A stretch of DNA of 50,146 bases from an uncultured Lachnospiraceae bacterium (lineage in GTDB: Bacteria > Bacillota > Clostridia > Lachnospirales > Lachnospiraceae). The stretch lies in contig CACYMQ010000010.1 of NCBI GenBank assembly GCA_902775555.1, positions 1 to 50,146 of the forward strand, read 5' to 3'. The notes under the pieces were generated by a model, which was not told the DNA's origin, searched no databases, and worked only from the letters and a program-made list of their open reading frames with translations. A program made the translations under genes and the position numbers. Positions 141 through 48,862 of the stretch are shown here, one piece after another. How positions within the stretch are numbered: the first letter of the stretch is position 1; the number at the start of each line of letters is the position of its first letter.

Positions 141-149
141 TGCTAAAAT
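141..149 (+). promoter_or_regulatory. extended -10 promoter of the AraC-family gene
   Basis: The bases TGCTAAAAT form an extended -10 element (TG, one base, then TAAAAT at 144-149). The hexamer 17 bases upstream (121-126, TTTCTC) is a poor -35, as tolerated for extended -10 promoters. Transcription would start near 156, just before the AGGAGG ribosome site at 164-169. The ATG at 148 lies inside this box, which argues against using it as the start codon. Bases 1-140 hold no gene that I can see. Confidence 0.55.
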
Positions 150-174
150 GAAAAAGGACCGGAAGGAGGTGCCC

Positions 175-915
175 ATGGATTTTGATAAGGAACTTTTCTA
201 CAAGGAATTCGTACAGCGTGAGGATGACTTTCTTCGCGCCCCCTATAACCCCGAGATCGAATTCTACAGCTGCATCAAATCCGGCGATGTGGAACGGGTA
301 CGGGAGCTCTGCAAGGACACGCTGAAGGACAAGCCCGGACTGGGCCGGCTCTCAAATGATCCTCTGCAGAATCTGAAGTATCATTTTGTCATCACCACCG
401 CTCTTGTGGCCAGATACTGCATCCAGGGCGGCATGGAGCTGTCCGACGCCTACGGGCTCAGCGACTATTTCATCCTGAAGGCCGACAACTGCCGGCGGCA
501 TCCGAAGATGAGCATCGAGTATGCCAAGCGGATGCGGGAGCTCCGGAAGAATTCCATCACCTCCGTGGAGATCGCCAGATGCATCGATTATATCTATGAC
601 CACCTGCACGCAAGGATCACCATCAAGGATCTGGCTTCCCATGTCCATATGAATGAAAGCCATCTGTCCAGGCAGTTCAAGAAAGAGGTCGGGATCCCCG
701 TCAGCAGCTATATCCGGCGCCGGAAACTGGAAACCGCCAAGAACATGCTGATATACTCCGACTATCGTCCCGCTGAGATCGCCAGCATCCTGGCCTTCCC
801 CAGCCAAAGCTACTTTACGGAGATCTTCCACAAGTATACCGGTATGACTCCCACTGACTACAAAAAGGCAAATTTCCGCCAGAGCATGGATGGTGTCGAG
901 GGCATATCCGATTGA
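175..915 (+). CDS. AraC-family transcriptional regulator
   Basis: A 246-residue cytoplasmic DNA-binding regulator. The C-terminal ~100 residues carry the two helix-turn-helix units of AraC/XylS proteins, with the pattern ITIKDLASHVHMNESHLSRQ followed by YIRRRKLETAKNML and a second recognition region ending FPSQSYFTEIFHKYTGMTP. The N-terminal ~135 residues (IKSGDVERVRELC, LSNDPLQNLKYHFV, GLSDYFI) match a helical sensor domain common in AraC proteins of clostridia; its ligand is unknown. I chose ATG 175 over the in-frame ATG 148 because AGGAGG (164-169) lies 5 bases upstream of 175 and 148 falls inside the likely -10 box. It directly precedes the hydrolase-ACP-ligase operon on the same strand, so local activation of that cluster is a reasonable inference but not shown. 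Confidence 0.9.
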   Translation: MDFDKELFYKEFVQREDDFLRAPYNPEIEFYSCIKSGDVERVRELCKDTLKDKPGLGRLSNDPLQNLKYHFVITTALVARYCIQGGMELSDAYGLSDYFILKADNCRRHPKMSIEYAKRMRELRKNSITSVEIARCIDYIYDHLHARITIKDLASHVHMNESHLSRQFKKEVGIPVSSYIRRRKLETAKNMLIYSDYRPAEIASILAFPSQSYFTEIFHKYTGMTPTDYKKANFRQSMDGVEGISD

Positions 916-940
916 CTCTGCCCCCTAAAACTGATACTAT
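912..940 (+). promoter_or_regulatory. promoter of the hydrolase-ACP-ligase operon, with a GC-rich leader
   Basis: TTGACT (912-917) is separated by exactly 17 bases from TACTAT (935-940), which also has an extended TG at 932-933. The -35 contains the TGA stop codon of the AraC gene. The roughly 110-base leader that follows (about 947-1055) is GC-rich and contains short inverted repeats (CTGCC/GGCAG, GGCC-rich runs); I could not match it to a known riboswitch. This promoter would allow separate control of the hydrolase, carrier protein and ligase. Confidence 0.6.
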
Positions 941-1055
941 TATGTATGTGTGCGGTATCGCCACACCCTGCAACCCTGAGCTGCCAGCGGCCGGCAGAAG
1001 AAAACAGCCGGGGCCGGTCTGAGGGACATTTTCGGTAAAAGAAGGACGCGGCAGT

Positions 1056-1913
1056 ATGAAAAAACATTTTACATTAAGAGACGGAAATGTCCTTGCTTAC
1101 GAAGATATCGGGCAAGGAGCGGAAACCGTGGTCTTCCTGCACGGGTGGACCAGTAACCGGAAGATCTACCGGGAACCGGCGAAGATGCTGTCCCACGAGG
1201 CCAGATGCATCATTTACGATCAGCGCGGACACAGTGACAGCCGGAAGGCGGGCGGAACCGAGGAGGATCCCGTCACCATGGAGACCCTTGCCACAGACCT
1301 GCACGAGATCATTACCGGTCTTTCACTGGCTCCCGTCACACTCGTGGGCTGGTCCATGGGTGCAGGGGTGATCATGAACTATGTAAGGCTCTTTGGCTGT
1401 GAAGGGATCAAGCAGGTGATCCTCTGTGATATGACCCCGAAGCAGCTGAACGATGAGACCTGGAACCTGGGCCTCATGCGCGGGAAATACACCCGGGAGA
1501 AAATGGAAATGGATGAAGGTGTGAATTTCCATGACCTGTATCTGAAGTTTGCAAGAAAGGCCCTCTCCCAGAAGAAGTTCCATCCGGACTTCCTGCTGCG
1601 TATCGCTATCTGGAGAAAGCTGATGAACTACGATACCACGGTTTTGGAAACCCTTTCCAGATCCATGAAACTGCAGGACAACCGGGATGTGATCCCCACC
1701 ATCACCTGTCCCGTCACCTATTTCTACGCAGATCCCGGAACGATCTTCCTTCCGGGCCTGAAGGACTGGTACAGGGAAAATGTAAAGTCTGCCTACCGGG
1801 AGATCCCATTTCCGGACAGTTCCCATATGCTGGTGAGCGAATATCCTGTCCGGTTCGCCGAAGAGGTGGGAAAGAGCCTGGCCGTCTATCACAGACGCCG
1901 CCAGACAAACTGA
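1056..1913 (+). CDS. alpha/beta hydrolase, thioesterase-like
   Basis: A 285-residue soluble alpha/beta hydrolase fold protein. The oxyanion-hole motif HGWTSN lies at 29-34 and the nucleophile elbow GWSMGAG at 98-104, giving Ser100 as nucleophile. Asp226 (YADPG) and His257 (DSSHML) are the likely other triad members. The length is normal for the family. An AAGGA ribosome site lies 9 bases before ATG 1056. It is the first gene of an operon with an acyl carrier protein and an acyl-AMP ligase, so a role as a type II thioesterase that releases or proofreads acyl chains from the carrier is likely. The substrate cannot be read from the sequence; an ordinary esterase is the alternative. Confidence 0.85.
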   Translation: MKKHFTLRDGNVLAYEDIGQGAETVVFLHGWTSNRKIYREPAKMLSHEARCIIYDQRGHSDSRKAGGTEEDPVTMETLATDLHEIITGLSLAPVTLVGWSMGAGVIMNYVRLFGCEGIKQVILCDMTPKQLNDETWNLGLMRGKYTREKMEMDEGVNFHDLYLKFARKALSQKKFHPDFLLRIAIWRKLMNYDTTVLETLSRSMKLQDNRDVIPTITCPVTYFYADPGTIFLPGLKDWYRENVKSAYREIPFPDSSHMLVSEYPVRFAEEVGKSLAVYHRRRQTN

Positions 1914-1979
1914 TTAGGAAGTTCCGGGCAACCGTATACGCCCGATCAACCCCATAATATTGTTACAAGGAGGAGGAAC

Positions 1980-2225
1980 ATGGAGGAAAGATTTAAGAAA
2001 CTGGCCGCACAGTACTGTACGGTTGCTGCAGAAGACATGAAGGATGATATGCGTTTTCGTGAGGACATGGGATTCAGCTCGCTGGACCTCATGACATTTC
2101 TCGGTGATCTCGAGGACGAATTCGATGTAGAACTTTCCCTGGAGCAGAATGCCGATAAGCTGGCACAGCTGCAGACAGTGGGCGGTGCCATCGCATATCT
2201 GAAGGAAAAGATGGAGGTTCAGTAA
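1980..2225 (+). CDS. acyl carrier protein
   Basis: An 81-residue acidic, helical carrier protein. The motif DMGFSSLDLM at 29-38 corresponds to the usual D-S-L site, so Ser34 should receive 4'-phosphopantetheine. The usual Asp before the Ser is replaced by Ser, which is tolerated in stand-alone carriers. A strong AAGGAGGAGG ribosome site precedes the ATG. The gene ends in TAATG, sharing one base with the start of the downstream acyl-AMP ligase, so the two are translationally coupled and probably act as a loading pair. It is dedicated to this cluster rather than the housekeeping fatty acid carrier, judged only from context. No phosphopantetheinyl transferase gene is visible in the window. Confidence 0.88.
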   Translation: MEERFKKLAAQYCTVAAEDMKDDMRFREDMGFSSLDLMTFLGDLEDEFDVELSLEQNADKLAQLQTVGGAIAYLKEKMEVQ

Positions 2226-3778
2226 TGGAGAAAACGATTTACACTTTATGGAATACCAGCGTTGAGAAGCATGCCGACCTCCCCGCCATCCGTTGGCTGG
2301 AAGGCAAAGAGGTAAAGGAGATCTCCTACGGCGCGCTGAATGAAAAGGCCCTCAATGTCAAGAAGGGACTTGCAGCAAAGGGCTTCTCGGGTGCGCACCT
2401 CGCCCTGATCGGCGTAAGCAGCGTAGAATGGATGCAGACATATCTCGGTATCACAACCGGCGGAAATGTAGCGATCCCCCTGGACATCCTGCTTCCCCCG
2501 AAGGAACTGATAGAGCTTCTGGTTCGTTCGGATTCCGAAGGCGTATTCCTGGATCCCCGTCTGGCTCCGCTGGCACCGGCCATCAAGGCATCCTGCCCGA
2601 AGATCCGCGGTATCTGGTTCTTCACTCCCGTGGAGGGTGCCGAGACCGTGCAGGACCTGGCAGACGCAGGTGCTGCAGCCGGTGATGTTGCCCTGACAGA
2701 ACCTCTCGGTTCCGATATTGCCACCATCGTATATACCTCCGGAACCACCGGAAAGAGCAAGGGTGTTCTTCTCACCCAGGAGAACCTCTATTCAAATGTA
2801 GAAGCCATCATTTACAACGTGGATCCCGGCGTGGTCTTCATGAGCGTACTTCCGGTCCACCATGCATTCTGCCTGGTCATGGACTGGATGCAGGCCTTCT
2901 GGATGGGTGCCGTTGTATGTATCAACGATTCCTTCCTTCATATGGTACGGAACATGTCCATCTTCAAGCCGGACGTTATGCTGATGGTTCCCCTGATGAT
3001 CGAAACCATTTACAAGCGTCTGAAGGCTGCCGCAGATCCGAATATCCCGCCTGCCCTCATCGGACAGAAGGTGTTCGGCGGAAAGCTGAAGCACGTCTTC
3101 ACCGGAGGTGCTCATCTGGAGCCCTTCTATATCGATGAATTTGCAAAATACGGCGTAATGGTACTGGAAGGCTATGGCATGTCCGAGTGTTCGCCCGTCA
3201 TTTCCTCCAACCGCGTCAGGTCCTATAAGCCCGGTTCCATCGGACGTCCTCTCCCCGGCGTGGAGATCTCCTTTGCCGACAACGGCGAGATCCTTGTAAA
3301 GAGCGCCAGTGTCATGAAGGGCTACTACAAGATGGAAGAAGAGACAAATGAGGCACTGAAGGACGGCTGGCTCCATACCGGAGACAAGGGCTACATGGAT
3401 GAGGACGGTTTCCTCTTCATCAACGGCCGTGTAAAGAACCTGATCATCCTCTCCAACGGCGAGAATGTATCCCCGGAGGAGATCGAAGGAACGCTCTGCT
3501 TGAATGATCTGATCGAAGAAGTCGTAGTCATGGGCGAAGGAAACGGCCTTACCGCTCATATCTATGCTTCTCCCGAGCTGACAGAGGGCTGGGCCCCCGA
3601 GAAGGTACAGGAAGAGCTGCAGAAGATCCTCGACAAGTTCAATGAAGAGCAGCCCTCTTACCGCCGCCTGACGAAGCTGGTGGTAAGAAAGAACCCCTTC
3701 ATCAAGAATGCAACGAGAAAGATCCTGCGCCACGAGGCACACAGGGATGAGCCGGTTGCTCCTCCTGCTCAGGGCTAA
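2225..3778 (+). CDS. acyl-AMP ligase / AMP-dependent synthetase (FadD-like)
   Basis: A 517-residue adenylate-forming enzyme that activates a carboxylic acid with ATP. Motifs in order: P-loop YTSGTTGKSKG at 170-180; LPVHHAFCL near 209-217, in the place where fatty-acyl ligases have PL-H-F; GYGMSECSP at 316-324; TGDKGYMDEDG at 385-395; and RVKNLIILSNGENVSPEE at 402-419. A C-terminal lysine in NATRKILR is the likely catalytic Lys. There is no Asp typical of amino-acid-activating domains in the A4 region, so an acyl or aryl acid substrate is more likely than an amino acid. It is coupled by overlap to the carrier protein and is paralogous to the A domain encoded at 5926-9522. Loading of Ser34 of the neighbouring carrier is the inferred role. 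Confidence 0.88.
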   Translation: MEKTIYTLWNTSVEKHADLPAIRWLEGKEVKEISYGALNEKALNVKKGLAAKGFSGAHLALIGVSSVEWMQTYLGITTGGNVAIPLDILLPPKELIELLVRSDSEGVFLDPRLAPLAPAIKASCPKIRGIWFFTPVEGAETVQDLADAGAAAGDVALTEPLGSDIATIVYTSGTTGKSKGVLLTQENLYSNVEAIIYNVDPGVVFMSVLPVHHAFCLVMDWMQAFWMGAVVCINDSFLHMVRNMSIFKPDVMLMVPLMIETIYKRLKAAADPNIPPALIGQKVFGGKLKHVFTGGAHLEPFYIDEFAKYGVMVLEGYGMSECSPVISSNRVRSYKPGSIGRPLPGVEISFADNGEILVKSASVMKGYYKMEEETNEALKDGWLHTGDKGYMDEDGFLFINGRVKNLIILSNGENVSPEEIEGTLCLNDLIEEVVVMGEGNGLTAHIYASPELTEGWAPEKVQEELQKILDKFNEEQPSYRRLTKLVVRKNPFIKNATRKILRHEAHRDEPVAPPAQG

Positions 3779-3781
3779 CCC

Positions 3782-3924
3782 ATGTCATCCTGAGCGTAGC
3801 GAAGGACCTTGCGACTCATGTCATCCTGAGCGTAGCGAAGGATCTTTACAGATAGATTCTTCGGCCTAACGGCCTCAGAATGACACCACTCGTCATCCTG
3901 AGCGTAGCGAAGGATCTTTACATA
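3782..3924. repeat. hairpin repeat cluster R1 (three type A copies, one inverted type B copy)
   Basis: Three copies of GTCATCCTGAGCGTAGCGAA-type sequence start near 3783, 3819 and 3891 and read on the + strand. Between them, at about 3853-3885, lies a type B copy (GTCATTCTGAGG ... GAAGAATC) on the opposite strand. Each copy can fold as a short hairpin with outer arms ATCCT/AGGAT (type A) or ATTCT/AGAAT (type B), a GA/GA tandem mismatch and an inner GC or GGCC stem. The cluster begins four bases after the ligase stop codon. It forms the left border of the GIY-YIG gene, and its type A copies are inverted relative to those in the cluster at 4303-4517. Confidence 0.9.
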
Positions 3925-3933
3925 TCAGTAACA

Positions 3934-3980
3934 GAAAAAGAGATCGAAAGGACATTCCATCCTTCCGATCTCTCTTTTTC
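3934..3980 (+). terminator. probable bidirectional rho-independent terminator
   Basis: An imperfect inverted repeat pairs GAAAAAGAGATCGAAAGG with CCTTCCGATCTCTCTTTTTC and ends in a T-rich tract. It can stop the + strand operon ending at 3778. The A-rich left arm would also serve the - strand GIY-YIG gene ending at 4004. A truncated type B repeat (GGGCAAAGCCCGA, 3984-4002) lies between the hairpin and the GIY-YIG stop codon. Confidence 0.6.
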
Positions 3981-4003
3981 TTTGGGCAAAGCCCGATGAA
4001 TCA

Positions 4004-4288
4004 TTATCCGTAATCTGATAATTCCTTCCACTCCGGATTCAATGATTCTACCAATTGGTTCTTTTTTTCTCTTTTCCAGCCTTTGATCTCTTTTTCTCTG
4101 GATATAGCATCGATTATGCTTCCACAGTCTTCACAGTATACAAGTTTATGAACGTTATACTTTTTTGTGAAACCATCGACCAGACCATTCTTATGCTCAT
4201 ATAATCGTCTGTTTAGGTCGTTTGTGACGCCGACATACATCACCTTATTATTCCAGTTTGTCAAAATGTATACATAGTAGTTATTCAT
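4004..4288 (-). CDS. GIY-YIG domain nuclease, small stand-alone type
   Basis: A 94-residue protein that is essentially one GIY-YIG domain. The N-terminal strands read YYVYILTN then MYVGVTND, equivalent to the GIY and YIG elements. The conserved Arg lies in DLNRRLYEH and the catalytic Glu in ISREKEIKGWKREKK. The size fits the compact UPF0213-like members, whose biological role is not settled; related domains cut DNA in homing endonucleases and repair enzymes. An AAAAGGA ribosome site lies about 7 bases before the ATG. The gene is an island: repeat cluster R1 and a repeat fragment that touches its stop codon lie on one side, and cluster R2 (starting 15 bases upstream) lies on the other. That suggests a functional or mobilising link with the repeats. 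Confidence 0.85.
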   Translation of the reverse strand: MNNYYVYILTNWNNKVMYVGVTNDLNRRLYEHKNGLVDGFTKKYNVHKLVYCEDCGSIIDAISREKEIKGWKREKKNQLVESLNPEWKELSDYG

Positions 4289-4302
4289 GCATTAATCCTT
4301 TT

Positions 4303-4517
4303 AAGATCCTTCGCTTCGCTCAGGTTGACAACACCTTGTCATTCTGAGGGCGAAGCCCGAAGAATCCTATCTTGTAAAGATCCTTCGCTTCGCTCAGGAT
4401 GACACGGGTAGCAGGATACTTCGCTTCGCTCAGGTTGACATAAAGTTTTTGTAAAGATCCTTCGCTTCGCTCAGGATGACATGGACGCAGGATGACATGG
4501 GCTCAGGATGACAGGAT
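4303..4517. repeat. hairpin repeat cluster R2
   Basis: Type A copies read on the - strand at about 4303-4330, 4376-4404, 4413-4440 and 4453-4482. One type B copy reads on the + strand at 4337-4367, with inner stem GGGC/GCCC and loop GAA. Two truncated ends (GCAGGATGACATGG and GCTCAGGATGACAGG) follow to 4517 and run up to the condensation-protein stop codon. The orientation is opposite to cluster R1, so the two clusters bracket the GIY-YIG gene as inverted repeats. Confidence 0.9.
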
Positions 4518-4521
4518 GGTA

Positions 4522-5910
4522 CTATACGGTTCCCATCAGCTCACCCAGGGTGATGGAGGGGTTCTCGATCCCCTTGAACATCACTCTCATCATGTAATAA
4601 TACAGCACCTCCATGTCCTGTTCCGTAAGGTCCGCCGTCTGGTAATGGTACGAGAATTCCATCTCTCCCTTGGGGGTATGGGATACGGTCAGATACATCT
4701 TCTTCGTAGCTGCTCCGTTGGCAAACCACTTGAAGTATACCGGGATCCCTCCGGTTCCCTTTCCGATGGCATCTGCAGTAATGGGCTGATAGGTAAGATA
4801 ACAGCTGACATAGGTGGTATGCTTCGGTGTCTTATATCTCCTGCGCATCTCCTCCCTGAGGAGCTCAGGGTCATAATTGGCATGCATGTAGGTGAGATTC
4901 TGTAGCTGCTGCAGCTCCTTCAATGCATCCATAAAGCTCATGTCCGCCGAAAAAACGGTCCTGCAGGGGAAGGTAATGGTACGGCTTCCTCCGGATGCCC
5001 ATTCATCCTGGGTGGACCTTCTGGAAAGGAAGTTCTCCACCGTGATATCCTCCTGTCCTCCGTTCACCTTGGAAAGGTAGGTCCGCATGGTAAGAAGGAT
5101 CAGATTCGTGGGTGAGATCTGATTCGTCTTGCAGAAATCGATCACCCGGCTCACCGGTTCCGGCTCCAGATAATAATTCTTTACTGTTACAAAGAGATTC
5201 TTTCTCTCGATATCCGCAGCCCGAAGCTCCGGCTTGCGGTGCTTCTTTCTGGCCTTCTCCAGAGGTCCGGGGCCCTGGATATCGGAATACAGGGGCTCTC
5301 CGTACTTATCCAGCTGCGATTCCCAGAACTTCCTGTCCTTCTCCCGGCGCTTCGGATTGTTGGCCTTGTCCAGTTCCTTCACCAGCAGCTGCTCGAAATC
5401 CGCCGGATCCTTCGGCATCGGTTTTCCCAAAGCCAGGTGGGCATAGATCCCATAGAGATCCGCAATGATCACATAGAGTCCGCTGGAATCGATCAAACGA
5501 TGGTCCATATGAAGGAAAATGCCATGATATCCGTCCGGCAGATGCATCAGCTTAAACTCACACATAGGGATATCATTTCCGTCAAATGTATGATATGCCC
5601 ATTCCTGCATGATGGCTTCCGCTTCCTCACGGGTCTTGTCCGACAGATCCACCGTCGGGATCTCTCCCATATCCGTATCCTCGGGTACAAAATACTGCTG
5701 CACATTTCCCTTCTTATCCGGCGCCGTGAACTGCAGCCGCATGCATCCCTGCCGCTTATACAGCATACGGATGCTCTGCTCCATCAGATCCATCTGCATG
5801 GGGATCTGAAGGGCGGATACGATGGACAGTCCCGCCACCTGCTGGGTCCCGTATTCATTGATCCACAGATTATGCATATTCTCCGCCGGTGTAAGTGGAT
5901 AATAAGTCAT
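4522..5910 (-). CDS. stand-alone condensation-domain protein (NRPS-like acyltransferase)
   Basis: A 462-residue protein made of one condensation/CoA-dependent acyltransferase fold. The start YYPLTPAEN resembles the C1 motif of condensation domains. The active-site HHxxxDG appears as DHRLIDS at 136-142: the second His (137) and the Asp (141) are kept, the first His is Asp, and the Gly is Ser. A second structural half follows with NFLSRRSTQDEW and ITFPCRTVFSADMSFMDALK. It lies 15 bases downstream of the A-T-C gene on the same strand with a GGGGG ribosome site, so the two form an operon. It likely transfers an acyl chain from a carrier to an amine or alcohol acceptor; whether it makes an amide or an ester is unknown. 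Confidence 0.82.
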   Translation of the reverse strand: MTYYPLTPAENMHNLWINEYGTQQVAGLSIVSALQIPMQMDLMEQSIRMLYKRQGCMRLQFTAPDKKGNVQQYFVPEDTDMGEIPTVDLSDKTREEAEAIMQEWAYHTFDGNDIPMCEFKLMHLPDGYHGIFLHMDHRLIDSSGLYVIIADLYGIYAHLALGKPMPKDPADFEQLLVKELDKANNPKRREKDRKFWESQLDKYGEPLYSDIQGPGPLEKARKKHRKPELRAADIERKNLFVTVKNYYLEPEPVSRVIDFCKTNQISPTNLILLTMRTYLSKVNGGQEDITVENFLSRRSTQDEWASGGSRTITFPCRTVFSADMSFMDALKELQQLQNLTYMHANYDPELLREEMRRRYKTPKHTTYVSCYLTYQPITADAIGKGTGGIPVYFKWFANGAATKKMYLTVSHTPKGEMEFSYHYQTADLTEQDMEVLYYYMMRVMFKGIENPSITLGELMGTV

Positions 5911-5925
5911 TTCAAAAGTCCCCCT

Positions 5926-8900
5926 TTATTTGAGTATATTAATAAATTTCGGCACCATGGCCTTCTCGTCATCCTTCTTCAGCTGCTCGATGATCGCTTC
6001 TGCCGTAAGCTCTTCTTCCTCCCTGATATCCGCTGCAAGAGACATCTCATTGATCTCGGTATCAAAGGTCATGTAGCACTTCGCCTCGGTGATGGCCGGC
6101 AGTGCCAGAAGGCTGTCTTCCAGCGCCTTCAGATCATAGTATACACGTCCGTGCGCTCCGTCGGTCAGGACCTTACGTCCGGCATCCTCAAGGAAGTCCA
6201 CGGTTCCGTCCGGAAGGATCCTTGCGGTCAGTCCGGTATTGTATACCATACCCGGTCCGAAGGGATACTGATGAACCTCCGTATAATGGGACGGTTCATA
6301 ATCCATGATGCAGAGGCTTCCCCATGCACCGAAGGGTTTCTTTCTGTACTCGTCATCCAGGATATAGATCCGTACCGGATCCTCCTCTCCGGTAGCGGGA
6401 AGAAGCACTTCCTTCGCCGCCTCATTCAGCCTGCCTGCCGGACAGTAGAAATGCTTCGGGTAGGCATCTGCCGGTATATGCTTCTTCAGGCATCGTACCG
6501 AAGGCTCCGAGAGCATGGCCCGGAGGATCTCCTCGAAGCAGGTAAGGAACAGCTCCAGTACACTCCGGTCAAAACGGTTCTCCCAGTAACGAAGCTCCAA
6601 ATAATATCCCTTATCATCATTCATTACCTGCAGATGGAAGGGAAGGGAATCCAGCTGTACATGGATCCTCTCCGTATCCTTGCCGCCGATCTGGTCTACC
6701 TCAAGGATGTCTCCCTGGAACTGGAAGAACATCTCCCCCTCTCTCGGGCAGCTGGTGACGGACTTCATGGTGGACAGGATCTGCTTTCCGGTCCTCTTCA
6801 GAAGCTCATCCACCGTCTCGTGCGGGATCCGGTTAAACCGGCTGTAATAGGTCCGGAAGATGGATCCGGCCAGGCGGTTCCACCGGCTGTCGGTACGACC
6901 ACTGTGGATGGAGGAACAGAAGACATCCTCCTCATCCGAGAAGAGGTGGATACAGTAATTAAATGCGGTGATGAAGTACACATTTTCGGATACACCGTGT
7001 TCCTTACCGAAGTAAAGCACTTTCTTTCTGGGTACCCGGGACAGCCGCCGGCGGATGGAACCGTAAACACCCTCGGACAGATCCTGCTCTCCGCCCCTCG
7101 CCAGGATACTTCTGGAGAGTCTCAGATCCTTCATCAGTTCTGCCGTAGCCACAACATCCTTTGCACGCTTTCCGTTCTGTGCCGTCGCACAGTTATCCAG
7201 GATATATTCATAACCCGTGTATTCTCCCTCGGGTTCGACCGGCTTGCCCTCGTAGGCCTTTGCCAGATCCTCCAGAAGGATATTCATCGTCATACCGTCG
7301 CCCATAAAATGTGCCACATCAAAGAAGAGATAGGTATGCTCCTCACCCAGGAAGATGCGGATATGTACCAGATCATCATCCTCCCGGAACCGGAAGGGCA
7401 CGATGGTCTTCTGAATGATCTCCTGCGCTTCTTCATCCTTGATCTCTTCCACCGGAATATCGATCACACGGTCGTCATGCCGGTAGATCCCCAGATACCG
7501 GGTCTCCGTCGGCTTAACGATGGCCTTCAGTGTAGGATGGGCATCCAGCACATCATAAATGGCCTTCTTCAGCCGTTCCACATCGATATCCTTTGACATC
7601 TTAAATGCAAAGGGCAGATTGCCCGTAGTATTTCCCGGGATCACATATGCAAAATACATCTGCATGCTGGTAAGCGGATATACATCCCTCTTCGAGAGAT
7701 CCGTCTTCACCTCTTCTGCTCCGCCGGTAAAGAATTCTTCCAGCTTCAGGATGGACGAATGATCCATCAGTTCCGAAAGGGAGATGGTCAGGTTCAGTTC
7801 GTCCTTGATACCGGAGATCAGCATGGTGGAGCCGAGGGAATCCAGTCCCACATCGTACAGGTCGTCGTCGACGGAGAAGTTCTCCGTTCCCAGTTCCCTT
7901 GCAACCAACAGGAAGAGCTTCTTCTGCAGCTCCGTCTCCGGAAGCTTCCGTACCTTCTCCTTCTCTTCGGCTTTCGCCTTCTCCTCAAAGAGTTTGTTCC
8001 TTGCGATCTTCTTGGACGAAGTCTTGGGGAACGGATGATTTCTGAGCGTCACCTTTGCGATCCGTGCATAAGGCGGAAGCTCCTCATTATGCTTTGCCAC
8101 GATCTCCTCCACCACGGGAGCAATATCGGTAATTCCTGTCTTCTCCGCATATTCAAAGTTCGGATATACTTCCGCAACGATCCGGTCACCCTCGCCGTAT
8201 GCAACGATATCCTCCACGATCCGGTCGGAATCGAATTTATTCTCGATCAGCTCCGGAGATACATTCTCACCGTTGGAGAGAATGATCAGGTTCTTGATCC
8301 GTCCGTTCAGGAAGAGGAATCCGTCCTCATCCAGATAACCGGTATCTCCCGTACGAAGGAAACCGTCTTCCAGAAGTACTTCCTTCGTAAGCTCTTCGTC
8401 ATTATAATATCCCTGCATGACAGAGGGACTCTTCACCTGGATCTCCCCGTCCACGATGCGGATCACTGCGCCGGTCACGGGGCGTCCTACGGACTCGATC
8501 TTCTCGGGATGCTCATAATCCGGAATGGTGATCTTCGGTGCACACTCGGACATACCATAGCCCTGTGCTGCCGTGATGCCCAGCTCCATCAACTGATGGG
8601 ACAGCTCGCCGGACAGATATCCTCCGCCGCTGACCAGCCGGTTCAACCGGTCTCCCATTACTTCGGCCCGGAGCTTCAGGACGGACTCTTCAGGGCGCTG
8701 CTGCTTCAGCATGGCTACACGGTTGCAGAGCATTTTCGCCATCATGGGTACGACACGCATGACCGTAGGCCGGAAGAGCTTCATGTAATACAGCATCCGG
8801 GACAGGTCATTGCACTGGCAGAGCGTACTGCCGTAACGCATCACCAGAAGCACATCACTGCTGATACAGAAGATGTGATGGATCGGAAGTACATTCAGGC

Positions 8901-9522
8901 AGACCTCCTGATAGTCGTCCACACAGAACAGGTTATCGATCAGATTGCCATGGGACAGCATAACGCCCTTTCCGTGTCCCGTGGTCCCGGAGGTGAAGAT
9001 GATCATGGCCGTATCCTCCGGGCGGATCCTCCAGGAGGTATCCTGTCCGCGGTAAACCCGATGGATCATGGGCACGCTCCTGATATTCTTTACTACCTGC
9101 ATAGCAACAAAACGCTTGATGAATTTACATTTCTTCTTTATCACATCAAACTGGGATTTAAAGGAATAATCGAGGAACAGGATATCCACATCCGCTTTCT
9201 TCAGATTCTCGATCAGTGTATCCGTGGAAGCCTGGATATCAAGCGGGATCGACACACCGCCGCCACAGGGCGTTCCCAGCAGGACCGTCAGGTATTCATA
9301 GCTGCATTTCCCCAATAATGCAACATGGGCGGGATGCCCGTATTTTTCGCTCTGGGCATGGATGTAACAGGCCACTGCCAGCGTGTCCTGCACAAAAGTA
9401 CCGTAACCCCTTTCATAGATCCTGTCATCTCTTTCATACCGGTAGAAAATGTTGTTCTCAAAATCATCTCCCACACGACGGACCAGATCCTTCAACGTTT
9501 TCGTGTTATTATACGTGATCAT
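5926..9522 (-). CDS. NRPS-like A-T-C protein with a second adenylation-domain remnant
   Basis: A 1198-residue cytoplasmic megaenzyme. Residues 1-515 are an acyl-ligase-like adenylation domain: P-loop FTSGTTGHGKG 176-186, LPIHHIFC 212-219, GYGMSECAPK 321-330, TGDTGYLDEDG 391-401, RIKNLIILSNGENVSPE 408-424, and a catalytic Lys in KTSSKKIAR. Residues 530-600 are a carrier domain with Ser562 in VGLDSLGS. Residues 612-1010 are a condensation domain whose HHxxxDG reads AHFMGDG (His738, Asp742), with the first His replaced by Ala. Residues about 1048-1198 align in order with the end of a second adenylation domain (RIYILDDE, GPGMVYNTG, LPDGTVDFL, LPAITEAK, MVPKFINIL) but lack its ATP-binding core. 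It has its own strong promoter. The A domain is paralogous to the ligase at 2225-3778, pointing to acyl rather than amino acid activation. Confidence 0.85.
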   Translation of the reverse strand: MITYNNTKTLKDLVRRVGDDFENNIFYRYERDDRIYERGYGTFVQDTLAVACYIHAQSEKYGHPAHVALLGKCSYEYLTVLLGTPCGGGVSIPLDIQASTDTLIENLKKADVDILFLDYSFKSQFDVIKKKCKFIKRFVAMQVVKNIRSVPMIHRVYRGQDTSWRIRPEDTAMIIFTSGTTGHGKGVMLSHGNLIDNLFCVDDYQEVCLNVLPIHHIFCISSDVLLVMRYGSTLCQCNDLSRMLYYMKLFRPTVMRVVPMMAKMLCNRVAMLKQQRPEESVLKLRAEVMGDRLNRLVSGGGYLSGELSHQLMELGITAAQGYGMSECAPKITIPDYEHPEKIESVGRPVTGAVIRIVDGEIQVKSPSVMQGYYNDEELTKEVLLEDGFLRTGDTGYLDEDGFLFLNGRIKNLIILSNGENVSPELIENKFDSDRIVEDIVAYGEGDRIVAEVYPNFEYAEKTGITDIAPVVEEIVAKHNEELPPYARIAKVTLRNHPFPKTSSKKIARNKLFEEKAKAEEKEKVRKLPETELQKKLFLLVARELGTENFSVDDDLYDVGLDSLGSTMLISGIKDELNLTISLSELMDHSSILKLEEFFTGGAEEVKTDLSKRDVYPLTSMQMYFAYVIPGNTTGNLPFAFKMSKDIDVERLKKAIYDVLDAHPTLKAIVKPTETRYLGIYRHDDRVIDIPVEEIKDEEAQEIIQKTIVPFRFREDDDLVHIRIFLGEEHTYLFFDVAHFMGDGMTMNILLEDLAKAYEGKPVEPEGEYTGYEYILDNCATAQNGKRAKDVVATAELMKDLRLSRSILARGGEQDLSEGVYGSIRRRLSRVPRKKVLYFGKEHGVSENVYFITAFNYCIHLFSDEEDVFCSSIHSGRTDSRWNRLAGSIFRTYYSRFNRIPHETVDELLKRTGKQILSTMKSVTSCPREGEMFFQFQGDILEVDQIGGKDTERIHVQLDSLPFHLQVMNDDKGYYLELRYWENRFDRSVLELFLTCFEEILRAMLSEPSVRCLKKHIPADAYPKHFYCPAGRLNEAAKEVLLPATGEEDPVRIYILDDEYRKKPFGAWGSLCIMDYEPSHYTEVHQYPFGPGMVYNTGLTARILPDGTVDFLEDAGRKVLTDGAHGRVYYDLKALEDSLLALPAITEAKCYMTFDTEINEMSLAADIREEEELTAEAIIEQLKKDDEKAMVPKFINILK

Positions 9523-21719: not shown

Positions 21720-21769
21720 AAAGATCCTTCGCTTCGCTCAGGATGACATGGTTGCTCAGGATGACATGG
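21720..21769. repeat. hairpin repeat cluster R3
   Basis: One full type A copy reads on the - strand (about 21720-21747) and is followed by a truncated copy (TTGCTCAGGATGACATGG, 21752-21769). It lies 30 bases upstream of the HlyD-like start codon, overlapping its likely promoter region. Confidence 0.85.
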
Positions 21770-31537: not shown

Positions 31538-31720
31538 GTCATTCTGAGGAGTGGAGCCGCCGGTGTCATTCTGAGGAGCGCAGCCACCGGTGTCATTCTG
31601 AGGAGCGCAGCGACGAAGAATCTTTATGTCCGAAAGATCCTTCGCTTCGCTCAGGATGACATGATGGATCCTTCGCTTCGCTCAGGATGACAGGCATGTT
31701 GACGGATCCTTCGCTTCGGG
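31537..31720. repeat. hairpin repeat cluster R4
   Basis: Three type B copies or part copies on the + strand start near 31537, 31564 and 31591. Only the last is complete, and it has the longer inner stem with GGAGC/GCGAC. Two type A copies on the - strand (31633-31662, 31666-31693) and a truncated one (31704-31720) follow. The type A copies run into the 3' end of the MFS gene and supply its stop codon. Confidence 0.9.
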
Positions 31721-33087: not shown

Positions 33088-35634
33088 TTATTCCGCAAGA
33101 TAGCCCGCCTTATCAAAGGTATAGCTCTTACCGTCGATCACATAGGATCCGCTCTTTGCATACCATTTCTTATTTCCATACCACCAGCGGTTCCCGGACT
33201 TCTTCCATGCATATTTCGCAGCATCCGTACTAAGCCCGTTCTTTCCTGCCCAGGTACCCTTCACGAACTCATTTGAGGCCATGTATCCTGCCTTGTTGAA
33301 GTAATACCTCTTACCATCGATGACATAAGAGCCGTTCTTCGCATACCATTTCTTATTCCCGTACCACCAGCGGTTTCCGGACTTATGCCAGGTATACTTT
33401 GCCGTATCCTTCCATGCACCGCTCTTCTCAAGCCAGTAGCCGTCCACGAACTCGCCGGAAGCCATGTAGCCCTTCTTATCGAAATAGTACCAGGTTCCGT
33501 TGATCTTCATCCAGCGGTCCTTAAGATAGCCCATCCGTTTTCCTTCTTTTGCAAGCTCATAATACCAGCCCGTTTTGTCCTTCTTCCATCCGCCGAGCCT
33601 CACCTGTTCATTGCAGGATCCGTTCTTTGAAATAGTATAGCCGTCACGGATCGCATCACTTTCCATGATGCCGTTCTTATCAAAGAAATACCGCACTCCG
33701 TCGATCCTCTGCCACTGGTTCTTTGCGGACCAGCCGGTGTCATCCCTGAACGTCCAGCCCTTTGCGGTCTTAACCCATTTGCCGGTTACCTTGGTGTTTG
33801 CCTTTCCGTCCTTGTCATACCAGATCCCGTCTACCCATTCATTTGCATAATCCTTATAATAGTCACGGATCGATTTACGGAGGGTCGACAGTTTAAAGCA
33901 ATCGGAGTAATCCAGCTCATAGGGCACCGGTTCTTTTACCAGCAGGTAATCCGGTGCCGCACCCAGATCCACCTCCGTGTCATCCGCCAGGCATAATGTG
34001 ATATTTCCGGAGATCTGATAGCGGAATCCACCCGGCATATAGAACATTGACATGATGCATCCGCCACCGCCGGAGGTTTCCCCAATGATCGGGATCCCGG
34101 CCGCCTTCGCCATTACGGGAAGATAATTTGCCGAGGAAAATGACACTCTTGTCGTAAGGATCGCAAAGTTCAGATCATAACCGAATGCCTTATCCTTCTC
34201 ATCAAAGTTTCCATCCAGATTCAGATCCATTGCCTTCACATCCCTGATCTTCTCATGGGTTGTAGTGACAGTATAATAGGCATCGTACTGATTGTCGGTC
34301 TTACTCCTGTTCTTCATAAGGGTGACCATATACTCGGCGATTTCCGTGGATCCCCCGCCATTCGTACCAAGATCTACGATGAAATTCCGGATCCCGTTTG
34401 CCTGGGCATAATCACAGGCCTCTTTAAATGCCGGTACCACAGGATTCAAAAAATCATCGAAGTAGAAGATTGCCGTGTCTTCCGCAGTAAAAAGCGCTGC
34501 CGAAGCGTCCACCCACGTCCTGGCCAGTTTCCAGTCCTTCATACCGGTCTGTCTGGCCTCATTGATCTTTTCTATATACATGCTTCTTTCTTCAAGCAGA
34601 CTGGTTGTTTTGATCATCGCTATATTATCGGGATCCAGCAGGTCCTCCATTTCCTCCTGGAGGGCCGTTGCGAAAGAAGAATCCGGATATGTATCCATGC
34701 AACTTGCAGTTTCAAATATGAGATTGGTATGTCCACCGTCATGCATCTGTACCTGAACCGCAGCCAGTCCCTTTGTAAACTCGATCACATTCGTGGAATG
34801 AAGCAGTTCTTTCGCACGCTTCAGGGCATCGCTGCTGTCCAGCGCCCTGTCAAAGCCATATTCCCTTATCGTTTTGGCGAGAGGCGCTCTGGGCGGTGCA
34901 CCATAGAAATTGTCGATCGTAAAGCAGATTTCATTATAGGTAAATTCTGCTTCTGCCGGATCTCTTTCCAGTTTCTCATAAAGGGCCTCCGTTGTATAGT
35001 AGGCTTCCCCGTTTGCGATCAGATCGGAGACATGAAAATAGTATAACTGACCTTCATAATACTGACCGATATTGTAAGTAACAGCGGTCATATCCCGGAT
35101 CGTCGAAAGCGGAAAATACAGCCGGCCGTTAACATCCATCAGATCGATCGAATACTTTGACAGATCAAATATGACCGAAGGCTTTCCTGAAACGGACGTA
35201 TTGGAGATCTCCTTCGCATAAGGCGAGTCTAACGCTGAACCCGCATCAGTTTCCTGGTTGACGAAGGACGCAAACTTCTCCGAAGTGATCATGTCCTTCT
35301 CTGTATCAACCTCCATGGTTGTCCCGGACGGGCTCGTGATAACGAAGAATCCGTCTGACAGCTTTTCAACAACAAAATCCTTCGTGTAGATCGTATCCAG
35401 ATATTTATCTACATCGATATAAGGAACGGTGGGAAGATCACTTCGAAACAGCAGTTTCGTCTTCTCCGTCGTATCCTCGTCATAGACGTAGGTCGTGACC
35501 TCCCGGATCTCCGTGCTCACCTCTCCCGCTTTCAATCCCTCTCCCCCAGCCGTTTCAGCATGTGAGGTCACCGGGATCATAACCCCGGAAAAGAGAGCCG
35601 CCGCGATTGCCAGTCGTAACAGTTTCTTTCTCAT
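33088..35634 (-). CDS. secreted S41-family peptidase with choline-binding-type wall repeats
   Basis: An 848-residue exported protein. The N-terminus (KKLLRLAIAAALFSGVMIPVTSHAETA) is a Sec signal peptide cut after the Ala-x-Ala region near residue 26. The centre (about 330-560) is an S41 tail-protease-like fold with FIVDLGTNGGGSTEIAEY and ILTTRVSFSSANYLPVMAKA, where the Ser in FSSAN is the candidate nucleophile, and IIGETSGGGGC. From about 610 to the end come CW-binding repeats (GWYYELAKEGKRMGYLKD, TWYYFDKKGYMASGEF, and two nearly identical NRWWYGNKKWYAK-containing units). It should process proteins or peptides at the cell surface while attached to wall polymer. It lies 22 bases downstream of moeA but is functionally unrelated to it. 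Confidence 0.85.
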   Translation of the reverse strand: MRKKLLRLAIAAALFSGVMIPVTSHAETAGGEGLKAGEVSTEIREVTTYVYDEDTTEKTKLLFRSDLPTVPYIDVDKYLDTIYTKDFVVEKLSDGFFVITSPSGTTMEVDTEKDMITSEKFASFVNQETDAGSALDSPYAKEISNTSVSGKPSVIFDLSKYSIDLMDVNGRLYFPLSTIRDMTAVTYNIGQYYEGQLYYFHVSDLIANGEAYYTTEALYEKLERDPAEAEFTYNEICFTIDNFYGAPPRAPLAKTIREYGFDRALDSSDALKRAKELLHSTNVIEFTKGLAAVQVQMHDGGHTNLIFETASCMDTYPDSSFATALQEEMEDLLDPDNIAMIKTTSLLEERSMYIEKINEARQTGMKDWKLARTWVDASAALFTAEDTAIFYFDDFLNPVVPAFKEACDYAQANGIRNFIVDLGTNGGGSTEIAEYMVTLMKNRSKTDNQYDAYYTVTTTHEKIRDVKAMDLNLDGNFDEKDKAFGYDLNFAILTTRVSFSSANYLPVMAKAAGIPIIGETSGGGGCIMSMFYMPGGFRYQISGNITLCLADDTEVDLGAAPDYLLVKEPVPYELDYSDCFKLSTLRKSIRDYYKDYANEWVDGIWYDKDGKANTKVTGKWVKTAKGWTFRDDTGWSAKNQWQRIDGVRYFFDKNGIMESDAIRDGYTISKNGSCNEQVRLGGWKKDKTGWYYELAKEGKRMGYLKDRWMKINGTWYYFDKKGYMASGEFVDGYWLEKSGAWKDTAKYTWHKSGNRWWYGNKKWYAKNGSYVIDGKRYYFNKAGYMASNEFVKGTWAGKNGLSTDAAKYAWKKSGNRWWYGNKKWYAKSGSYVIDGKSYTFDKAGYLAE

Positions 35635-36916: not shown

Positions 36917-37080
36917 AAAGATTCTTCGTCGCTGCGCTCCTCAGAATGACATCGACTTGTCATCCTGAGCAAAGCGAAGGATCTTGGATCATAAGATTCT
37001 TCGGGCTGTAACGTGTCATCCTGAGCAAAGCGAAGGATCTTGGATCATAAGATTCTTCGGGCTGCGCCCTCAGAATGACA
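36917..37080. repeat. hairpin repeat cluster R5
   Basis: A type B copy on the - strand (36917-36951) is followed by two tandem units with a 56-base period, starting at 36958 and 37014. Each unit joins a type A copy (+ strand, loop AAA) to an inverted type B copy by the spacer TTGGATCATAA. The second inverted B copy is complete, with inner stem GGGC/GCCC and loop GCA. The cluster fills the moeA - MOSC-MoaB gap. Confidence 0.9.
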
Positions 37081-37164
37081 CATGTGTGTGTCAGAATGAC
37101 ACATGTGTGTGTCGGAATGACACATGTGCGTGTCGGAATGACACATGTGTGTGTCAGAATGACA
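37071..37164. repeat. 21-bp tandem repeat extending from a hairpin repeat end
   Basis: Four units of 21 bases (CAGAATGACA plus CATGTGTGTGT, with single-base variants CGGAATGACA and CATGTGCGTGT) and a fifth partial unit. The CAGAATGACA half is the terminal sequence of the type B hairpin repeat next to it, so the array seems to have grown from that end. The array stops nine bases before the stop codon of the MOSC-MoaB gene. Confidence 0.93.
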
Positions 37165-37172
37165 AGCTCGGG

Positions 37173-38135
37173 TCAGTCCGGGCGGGCGCACTCGGATACG
37201 CCCCCGCGCAGTACGCGAAGCCCGTGTTCCAGTCCGCCCAGGATAAAGCCCAGGCACTCTTCCACGGCCTTGGGGCTGCCGGGCAGGTTCACGATCAGGG
37301 TATTGCCACGGATCACGGACGCACCTCTGGTGAGCATGGCCCTGTCCGTGATCTCCATCGACTTCATGCGGATATACTCCGCGATCCCCGGAGCACTGCG
37401 CTCGGCGATCTCCAGCGTAGCCTCCGGCGTACAGTCCCTGGATGAAAATCCGGTCCCACCGCTGGTAATGATCAGATCCGCTTCCCGTCCGTCACTGAGA
37501 CGGATCAGCTCCGCCCTGATCCTTCCGATCTCATCCGGTATCACCACGGTTTCGATCACCTCATAGCCATTCTGAACCAGGATCTCCGCTGCCTTCGGTC
37601 CCGAAAGATCCTCTCTTTTTCCCGTAGAGGCCTTGTCGCTCATTACGACGACAGCCGCACGAAACGGCCGGTCAGGCTCCGGATAGATCACCGAAAATGT
37701 ATCTCCCTTTTTGATCGTACCACCGGCCAGGACCTCCATAAAGGTTCCCTGACGGGGCATGATACATTCTCCCATCCGCTTATAGATCGTGCAGTGGGTA
37801 TGGCATTCCTTGCCCTTCTGCGTGATCCGGAGACGCACCGGATGCTCTCCGTCACCGATGCAGAAAACGCTTCCTACCGGGAGGGTTGACGGGTCCACTC
37901 CGTCTATGATCAGATTCTCCCCGAACGCCCCGCTTTCAACATTTGCGCCTCTTCGATTGAAATCATCGATCCGGAAACCGGAAAGGGTGCTCACCTGCCT
38001 GTGCCATTTGCCGGCGTGAGCATCTCCCTGTATGCCCTCACCCTCGATCAGCACAGCCGATCCCACTTCTTTTTTCTCAACACCGCGCTTCTCGCTTACG
38101 CAGATTGCACGGATCCTACCTGTGATCGTATCCAT
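37173..38135 (-). CDS. MOSC domain - MoaB/MogA fusion (molybdenum cofactor)
   Basis: A 320-residue fusion. Residues 1-150 are a MOSC domain (EGIQGDAHAGKWHRQVS, GAFGENLIIDG, and the Cys-containing KECHTHCTIYKRMGECIMPR), a sulfur-carrier domain linked to the cofactor. Residues 157-315 are a MoaB/MogA molybdopterin adenylyltransferase domain (VVVMSDKASTGKREDLSG, IITSGGTGFSSRDCTPEAT, VNLPGSPKAVEECLGFIL). The combination is seen in clostridial cofactor loci. It lies 28 bases downstream of moaA on the same strand. It should adenylylate molybdopterin before MoeA acts; the MOSC part may deliver or sense sulfur. Confidence 0.9.
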   Translation of the reverse strand: MDTITGRIRAICVSEKRGVEKKEVGSAVLIEGEGIQGDAHAGKWHRQVSTLSGFRIDDFNRRGANVESGAFGENLIIDGVDPSTLPVGSVFCIGDGEHPVRLRITQKGKECHTHCTIYKRMGECIMPRQGTFMEVLAGGTIKKGDTFSVIYPEPDRPFRAAVVVMSDKASTGKREDLSGPKAAEILVQNGYEVIETVVIPDEIGRIRAELIRLSDGREADLIITSGGTGFSSRDCTPEATLEIAERSAPGIAEYIRMKSMEITDRAMLTRGASVIRGNTLIVNLPGSPKAVEECLGFILGGLEHGLRVLRGGVSECARPD

Positions 38136-48814: not shown

Positions 48815-48862
48815 AAGATCCTTCGCTTCGCTCAGGATGACATGCTTCGCTCAGGATGACAT
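48815..48862. repeat. hairpin repeat cluster R6
   Basis: One full type A copy on the - strand (48815-48842) is followed by a truncated copy (GCTTCGCTCAGGATGACATG). It lies between the ABC ATPase stop codon and the permease ribosome site, inside the operon. Confidence 0.88.

Follow-up and report, generated by a model that had tools for sequence, protein, structure and literature searches.

Among the closest described systems is Ssn of Neisseria, which a 2025 study is said to have identified as a GIY-YIG nuclease that cuts single-stranded DNA at NTS repeats, and which reportedly modulates transformation and has many homologues. The NTS repeats of Neisseria are present in hundreds of copies. A second point of reference is the pairing of REPs with RAYT transposases, the REPtron, in which, as presented in the portion of PMC3733652 used here, a small gene for a Y1/HUH processing enzyme goes together with inverted hairpin repeats that carry a GTAG tag, flank the gene and are scattered through the genome. 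The same portion defines the CGTC-tag REPs, names dRS3 of Neisseria as one of them and, as of 2013, reports that they lack a dedicated transposase or other enzyme.

Here we analyzed a 50,146-nt stretch of DNA (the window), which is contig 10 of a 3.0-Mb, 96-contig genome of an uncultured Lachnospiraceae bacterium, and in which a gene for a GIY-YIG nuclease is the sole gene between two clusters of hairpin repeats, R1 and R2. The initial annotation of this locus had likened it to REP-RAYT pairs, a likeness we can support: a small gene for a candidate processing enzyme is accompanied by inverted hairpin repeats both at its flanks and across the genome, although the enzyme is GIY-YIG rather than Y1/HUH and the tag reads GTCAT, not GTAG. 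Calling it a system of a new kind was too strong, because the Neisseria homologue was reportedly described in 2025 as Ssn. Most likely, the locus represents an Ssn-type nuclease/repeat pair in a variant with tandem-GA hairpins, and its nuclease a candidate enzyme for CGTC-tag REPs.

A lone nuclease gene between opposed repeat clusters

In a Pfam profile search, the 94-aa protein matches PF01541 with E=1.4e-16; its profile matches comprise GIY-YIG and the overlapping T5orf172 model only, and none is of the Y1/HUH type. An AlphaFold2 model (mean pLDDT 92.9) has as its closest solved folds the UPF0213 protein 1zg2, Slx1 and the N-terminal domain of UvrC. Among 54 members of the group, Y18, G20, T22, R28, H32, G39, F40, K48, L49, E65, K66, K69, K76, L79, N84 and W87 are invariant. 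GIY-YIG active sites are expected to contain a tyrosine, an arginine and a glutamate, and all three are found among these residues. By eye, extra residues at the nuclease C-termini of four homologous loci (L039, L053, L097 and L112) resemble the translation of a neighbouring repeat that extends into the end of the gene.

The window genome holds one gene of this nuclease group, the second listed match standing at E 0.058. Membership in UPF0213, whose proteins share its size and closest solved fold (1zg2), was rejected: relatives of its own group are 57-74% identical, whereas UPF0213-like genes, recognized as such by eye, show 30-37% identity to the two query proteins and are not flanked by such repeats. 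We also rejected a role as a defence-system protein, for which PADLOC returned weak matches only (best E 0.0043).

As annotated, the gene, which is on the minus strand, stands alone between clusters whose type A copies point in opposite directions, those of R1 being all on the plus strand and those of R2 all on the minus strand; each cluster also contains a type B copy (R1, minus; R2, plus) (Table 1). The clusters indeed butt against both neighbouring genes, filling the gaps from 4 bases after the stop at 3778 to just before 4522. A truncated type B copy had been placed at the nuclease stop codon, and ends one base away from it, while the closest upstream repeat begins ~16 bases above the start codon.

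Table 1. Nuclease gene and repeat features of the window
Feature	Position	Strand	Basis
Type A, 3' arm imperfect (R1)	3784-3808	+	motif scan
Type A, hairpin with tandem GA mismatches (R1)	3820-3844	+	motif scan
Type B, longer hairpin (R1)	3855-3884	-	scan
Type A (R1)	3892-3916	+	motif scan
Terminator-like inverted repeat with T-run	3933-3981	.	by eye; not called by terminator scan
Type B remnant, truncated, one base from nuclease stop codon	3984-4002	+	by eye
GIY-YIG nuclease gene, 94 aa	4004-4288	-	PF01541, relatives in genome contigs, AlphaFold2 model
Type A, GTCAA variant, copy closest above start codon (R2)	4305-4329	-	motif scan
Type B (R2)	4338-4366	+	scan
Type A (R2)	4379-4403	-	motif scan
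Type A, GTCAA variant, imperfect arms (R2)	4415-4439	-	motif scan
Type A (R2)	4456-4480	-	motif scan
Partial repeat ends	4487-4515	-	by eye
Dispersed type A between long ORFs	21723-21747	-	scan
Dispersed cluster of one B and two A; long ORFs converge on it, and it overlaps last bases of one	31592-31691	.	scan
Dispersed cluster of four (B, A, A, B), long minus-strand ORFs on both sides	36920-37079	.	scan
Dispersed type A in first codons of mechanically called ORF, start unsure	48817-48841	-	scan

The repeats far exceed chance, which we rejected as their origin: with at most 3 mismatches allowed, 13 matches were counted in the 50-kb window, where 100 shuffles averaged 0, and with at most 2 mismatches the whole genome has 185 copies but none of a reversed control pattern. 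An RNA family was likewise rejected, with no Rfam match at 3600-4700 at the gathering threshold. Elsewhere in the window, overlapping tandem 21-bp units (TCAGAATGACACATGTGTGTG-like; 37070-37174) adjoin a type B repeat, suggestive of tandem amplification of a repeat end, and an 848-aa ORF contains two adjacent 183-nt direct repeats, 74% alike (33101-33466), which form an internal protein repeat. The surroundings of the cassette (148-9522) encode an AraC-type regulator, an alpha/beta hydrolase, an AMP-binding enzyme and a Condensation-domain protein, as well as two further ORFs, a small one resembling a carrier protein (1980-2225) and a large one of the adenylation type; this neighbourhood looks like a small NRPS-like cluster, judged from Pfam for five ORFs including the nuclease and by eye for the carrier and the large ORF.

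Hairpin architecture and relation to described repeats

The predicted fold of type A consists of 5 bp, a 2x2 G-A mismatch, 2 bp and a 3-nt loop. In DNA, tandem G-A pairs are unusually stable, as are GNA loops. Selecting by the core alone at 87 homologous loci plus the window, we found the 5-nt arms to be fully complementary in 51/93, 34/51 and 10/16 cases, against shuffle means of 10.6, 5.3 and 3.7, these 51, 34 and 10 cases corresponding to 4, 8 and 5 distinct sequences. Many of the remaining core-selected cases resemble longer forms in which the core is seated deeper. Under the same selection, the outermost stem pair is A-T in 55/93, 37/51 and 11/16 cases. The computed DNA fold of type A has an ordinary energy (-2.7 kcal/mol, z -0.35), while type B shows very little folding (z +1.47); since computed stability is not special, support for the hairpin comes from covariation, not from energy.

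With the CGTC-tag REPs, as defined in the portion of PMC3733652 used here, the window repeats share high copy number, a mostly intergenic location and clustering, as well as the unpaired tag (CGTC, TGTC or CCTC in those REPs) and the complementary AT at stem positions one and two. They differ in that the type A stem is shorter than 8-9 bp and interrupted, the loop has 3 rather than 4-5 nt, and the tail is T-rich instead of CCA-like. Because of these differences in stem, loop and tail, we regard the window repeats as related to CGTC-tag REPs and do not file them there. All repeats around the homologous gene of N. gonorrhoeae fit family 1 as defined there (8-bp stem, 4-nt loop; one sequence folded).

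The gonococcal homologue is 44.7% identical to the window nuclease over 85 aa and lies amid 16 CGTC-tag, dRS3-type repeats. We take this protein to be Ssn (site-specific single-strand nuclease). Both systems have a small stand-alone GIY-YIG protein, a cognate repeat adjoining its gene and many genomic copies of that repeat; they differ in the hairpin, which has tandem G-A and a 3-nt loop in the window and a plain 8-bp stem in the gonococcus, and at residue 75 of the nuclease, which is K in the window protein and not W. By homology and repeat adjacency, the window nuclease fits the Ssn family, and it is predicted to cleave single-stranded DNA. Our literature search found no link between GIY-YIG nucleases and these repeats among the matches listed, and the terms GTCAT, endonuclease and RAYT are absent from the portion of PMC12306157 used here.

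Repeats adjoin the gene across phyla

From genome contigs we collected 426 relatives of the nuclease and kept the best 80 of the 426 loci (57-74% identity, many phyla), picked by protein alone. At these 80 homologous loci, the repeats are 19 to 29 times denser beside the gene than further off, in line with the adjacency bias for which the initial annotation had proposed a check. A fixed motif yielded 59 copies in the 113.8 kb within 600 bp of the gene (0.518/kb) and 12 in the 665.7 kb beyond (0.018/kb). When repeats were defined by structure, that is, by GTCAT and a free 3-nt arm whose complement recurs before AT, there were 273 in 63.2 kb near and 162 in 700.6 kb far from the gene (81 loci, including the window). 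At least one such repeat lies near the gene in 79/81 loci and on both sides in 57/81, the window counted in both, with none near it at L063 (contig edge) and L110; these scans impose GTCAT and the 3-nt arm, and a few near matches (e.g., L061 and L070) are clearly chance. In a motif-free count, the 9-mers common to most loci beside the gene, such as TGTCATCCT, belonged by eye nearly all to this repeat family.

Five other matches from our phylum sample, unselected for similarity to the window, showed a flanking repeat in three cases (L152-L154) and none in two (L151 and L155), and no repeat was found within 600 bp of the gene in Novosphingobium (L142) and Sphingobium (L144). The comparison also took in six UPF0213-like GIY-YIG genes, of which four come from genomes that carry the repeats; none had such repeats beside it, two chance hairpins being all that was detected.

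Orientation provided a further regularity. Where the closest upstream repeat lies within 40 nt of the start codon, it is in the same sense as the gene in 35/38 cases (one-sided p 3e-8), and where the closest downstream repeat lies within 40 nt after the stop, it is antisense in 34/45 (one-sided p 4e-4), the limit of 40 nt having been set after inspection of the data. The GTCAT tags of these nearest copies face outward, which extends the inverted arrangement annotated at the window to its homologues. For closest copies more than 40 nt away, this bias vanishes or turns around, with 9 same-sense and 19 antisense copies upstream, and 12 and 13 downstream.

Residue 75 of the nuclease matches the hairpin class

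Lysine or arginine at residue 75 goes with tandem-GA hairpins at all 77 of the loci so classified, the window nuclease having a lysine, and tryptophan goes with plain hairpins at 12/12. The underlying table comprises 100 loci, 11 of them without a majority hairpin class; L095 (a 28-aa frame) and L163 were excluded from the table and from the tree. Plain-stem repeats with CGTC, TGTC or CCTC tags flank homologues in named proteobacterial records of N. gonorrhoeae, S. meliloti, A. lipoferum, Rhizobium, Shinella, Neorhizobium, Aeromonas and Photobacterium. In the best tree, tryptophan at residue 75 arose twice, with L105 (Bacteroidota) apart from the proteobacterial clade, and the two were joined in 0/200 bootstrap trees; a single origin is compatible with the well-supported branches alone, and the alignment is short and the bootstrap had not converged. 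Given this placement, the match between residue 75 and hairpin counts as one or two events, not twelve.

These regularities bear on the idea that another agent spreads the repeats and that intergenic arrays merely tolerate a small foreign gene. Many genomes do carry the repeats without the nuclease, as such hitch-hiking would have it, but the orientation of the nearest copies, the agreement of residue 75 with the hairpin class and the six UPF0213-like genes without adjoining repeats all argue against this idea, which we hold to be very improbable.

Patchy distribution and broken genes

In the phylum sample of 348 genomes (nuclease at E<=1e-15, repeat at up to 1 mismatch), we found the nuclease in 6, the repeat in 27, both in 5 and the nuclease alone in 1. 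The pairing is far above chance (Fisher p 1e-5; 1e-4 with the window genome excluded), yet most repeat-bearing genomes (22/27) lack the gene at that threshold, and a strict one-to-one co-occurrence was rejected on the strength of many such genomes in the phylum sample and the genus. The initial annotation had named two findings that would speak against it, namely repeats that are common in the absence of the nuclease and a lack of adjacency bias; with so many genomes having repeats without the gene (22/27, and a single-contig genome of the genus, G205), the first half is what we see, and the second is not, the adjacency bias being present.

Within a family sample of 200 genomes, at least 10 repeat copies occur only in the window genome (G000, 185) and in G052 (159), the latter retaining a 24-residue C-terminal remnant of the nuclease gene with an adjoining repeat. 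In the genus, 33/61 genomes have some copies. No homologue of this nuclease group was found in eight genus genomes with 29-97 copies, one of them the single-contig G205 with its 36. G205 also contains thirteen repeat copies at an exact 46-bp spacing (C1:1962249-1962821), a local tandem amplification. In G222, the second richest genome of the genus (99 copies), the nuclease gene is in two pieces on two contigs, the first of which continues into DNA encoding a Y1 transposase and an OrfB-IS605-type protein; we read this as a putative interruption by an IS200/IS605-type element. Matches in G001 and G247 were rejected as members since they look UPF0213-like by eye, which leaves the nuclease group with G000 alone in the family sample, and with G000 and the broken gene of G222 in the genus. 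Distribution and broken copies fit gain, amplification and then loss, an order that we infer.

A resident nuclease might instead serve its host by trimming incoming single-stranded DNA at the repeats and thereby tuning natural transformation, as is reported for Neisseria Ssn, with mobility being incidental. The position of the Neisseria homologue amid its 16 repeats would suit such a use, as would a ComEC-type gene in the window genome, except that ComEC is also present in 10/14 control genomes, so its presence is barely informative. The scattered occurrence of the gene and its broken copies in relatives do not resemble a function kept for the host, and we consider host use unlikely as the main explanation.

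The gene and its flanking repeats as a probable mobile unit

The annotation had further suggested movement as a small unit, of which there are signs at one Azospirillum site and in pairs of contigs from different phyla. Between sufB and sufC, A. lipoferum 4B has a ~520-bp unit made up of the gene and four CGTC repeats, of which one is imperfect; this unit is missing in four aligned Azospirillum relatives. Twelve records cover at least 80% of the stretch, one being 4B itself and the other 11 covering 82-89%; four of these were aligned and seven were judged by their shorter span alone, and several are strains of one species. By eye, the four aligned sites without the gene have no repeat there, and the alignment revealed no clean insertion junction.

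Proteins 80-88% identical were found in contigs of Zixibacteriota, Chloroflexota and Planctomycetota, which are metagenome bins and possibly mixed. In these cross-phylum pairs, the DNA match covers mostly the gene and a few tens of bases, and the flanks are mostly unlike: L039 and L055 have nothing else in common by ORF comparison, L040-L047 and L053-L066 have one further distant ORF in common each (48% and 28% identity), and L047-L055 have ~2.4 kb of flanking DNA in common at 69-70%. Two Omnitrophota contigs (L102 and L111) are 95% alike across the gene, the repeats on either side of it and a small ORF, and differ in the DNA outside. In both contigs (L111, 1441-1750), a small ORF that appears HTH-like by eye follows the cassette, and in one of them a serine-recombinase-like ORF as well. 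In Planktothrix agardhii (L141), the annotated neighbours of gene and repeats are an MmeI-type restriction enzyme on one side and the DISARM helicase DrmA on the other.

Movement does not seem to be frequent, since the related pairs L034/L041, L045/L046 and L072/L083 have the gene at the same place with long flanks in common. For the window locus, no useful empty site was found among relatives; where both were seen, genes like its two neighbours stand side by side on one strand (~54-63% protein identity). Sinorhizobium M103 was rejected as an empty site, because its gene occupies the position seen in S. meliloti, and the two differ only in flanking repeat DNA.

One alternative is a selfish gene of the homing type: the nuclease would break repeats at uninvaded sites and be copied in by recombination between flanking repeats, which would be pre-existing landing pads. 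Weak profile matches to homing endonucleases, repeats on both sides of the gene in 57/81 loci and two near-identical cassette copies in Methylophaga lonarensis (L104/L108), whose contig ends overlap as if in tandem, are compatible with homing. The absence by eye of any repeat from the four aligned Azospirillum sites without the gene speaks against it, and repeat presence tracks nuclease presence, as it need not for mere landing pads; on balance we think homing improbable, somewhat more so than host use.

A working model and its implications

The ~185 genomic copies and the same pairing in distant bacteria suggest that the enzyme probably has these repeats as its own targets within a small mobile unit. 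What we observed is the homology, the adjacency of gene and repeats, the orientation of the copies closest to the gene, the covariation of the hairpin arms, a single presence/absence case and the broken genes of relatives. We consider it likely that the DNA targets of this small GIY-YIG nuclease are the hairpin repeats around its gene and genome-wide, that the gene and the outward-facing repeats at its flanks make up a cassette of roughly half a kilobase able to move between genomes, and that the repeats multiply and stay whereas the gene is often lost later. The enzyme would recognize the repeat as a folded single strand and cut it, site-specific cleavage of single-stranded DNA being what is reported for the Neisseria homologue. 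More speculatively, repeats and cassette might spread when cuts made during replication or DNA uptake are repaired.

A broader version would make this GIY-YIG family the enzyme that the entire CGTC/TGTC-tag REP superfamily has been missing, across bacterial phyla; it is tentative and in our view has the odds somewhat against it. Such a transposase-free system would read the single-stranded hairpin through a residue-75 code (K/R for tandem-GA, W for plain), and the cut would set off the copying of both the repeats and the cassette.

REPs are common bacterial repeats, and in the portion of PMC3733652 used here their large CGTC-tag group stood without an enzyme as of 2013. A nuclease beside such repeats in many phyla gives the question of the CGTC-tag enzyme a concrete test that is cheap to perform in vitro, and the match at residue 75 offers a first hypothesis for how hairpin shape may be read.
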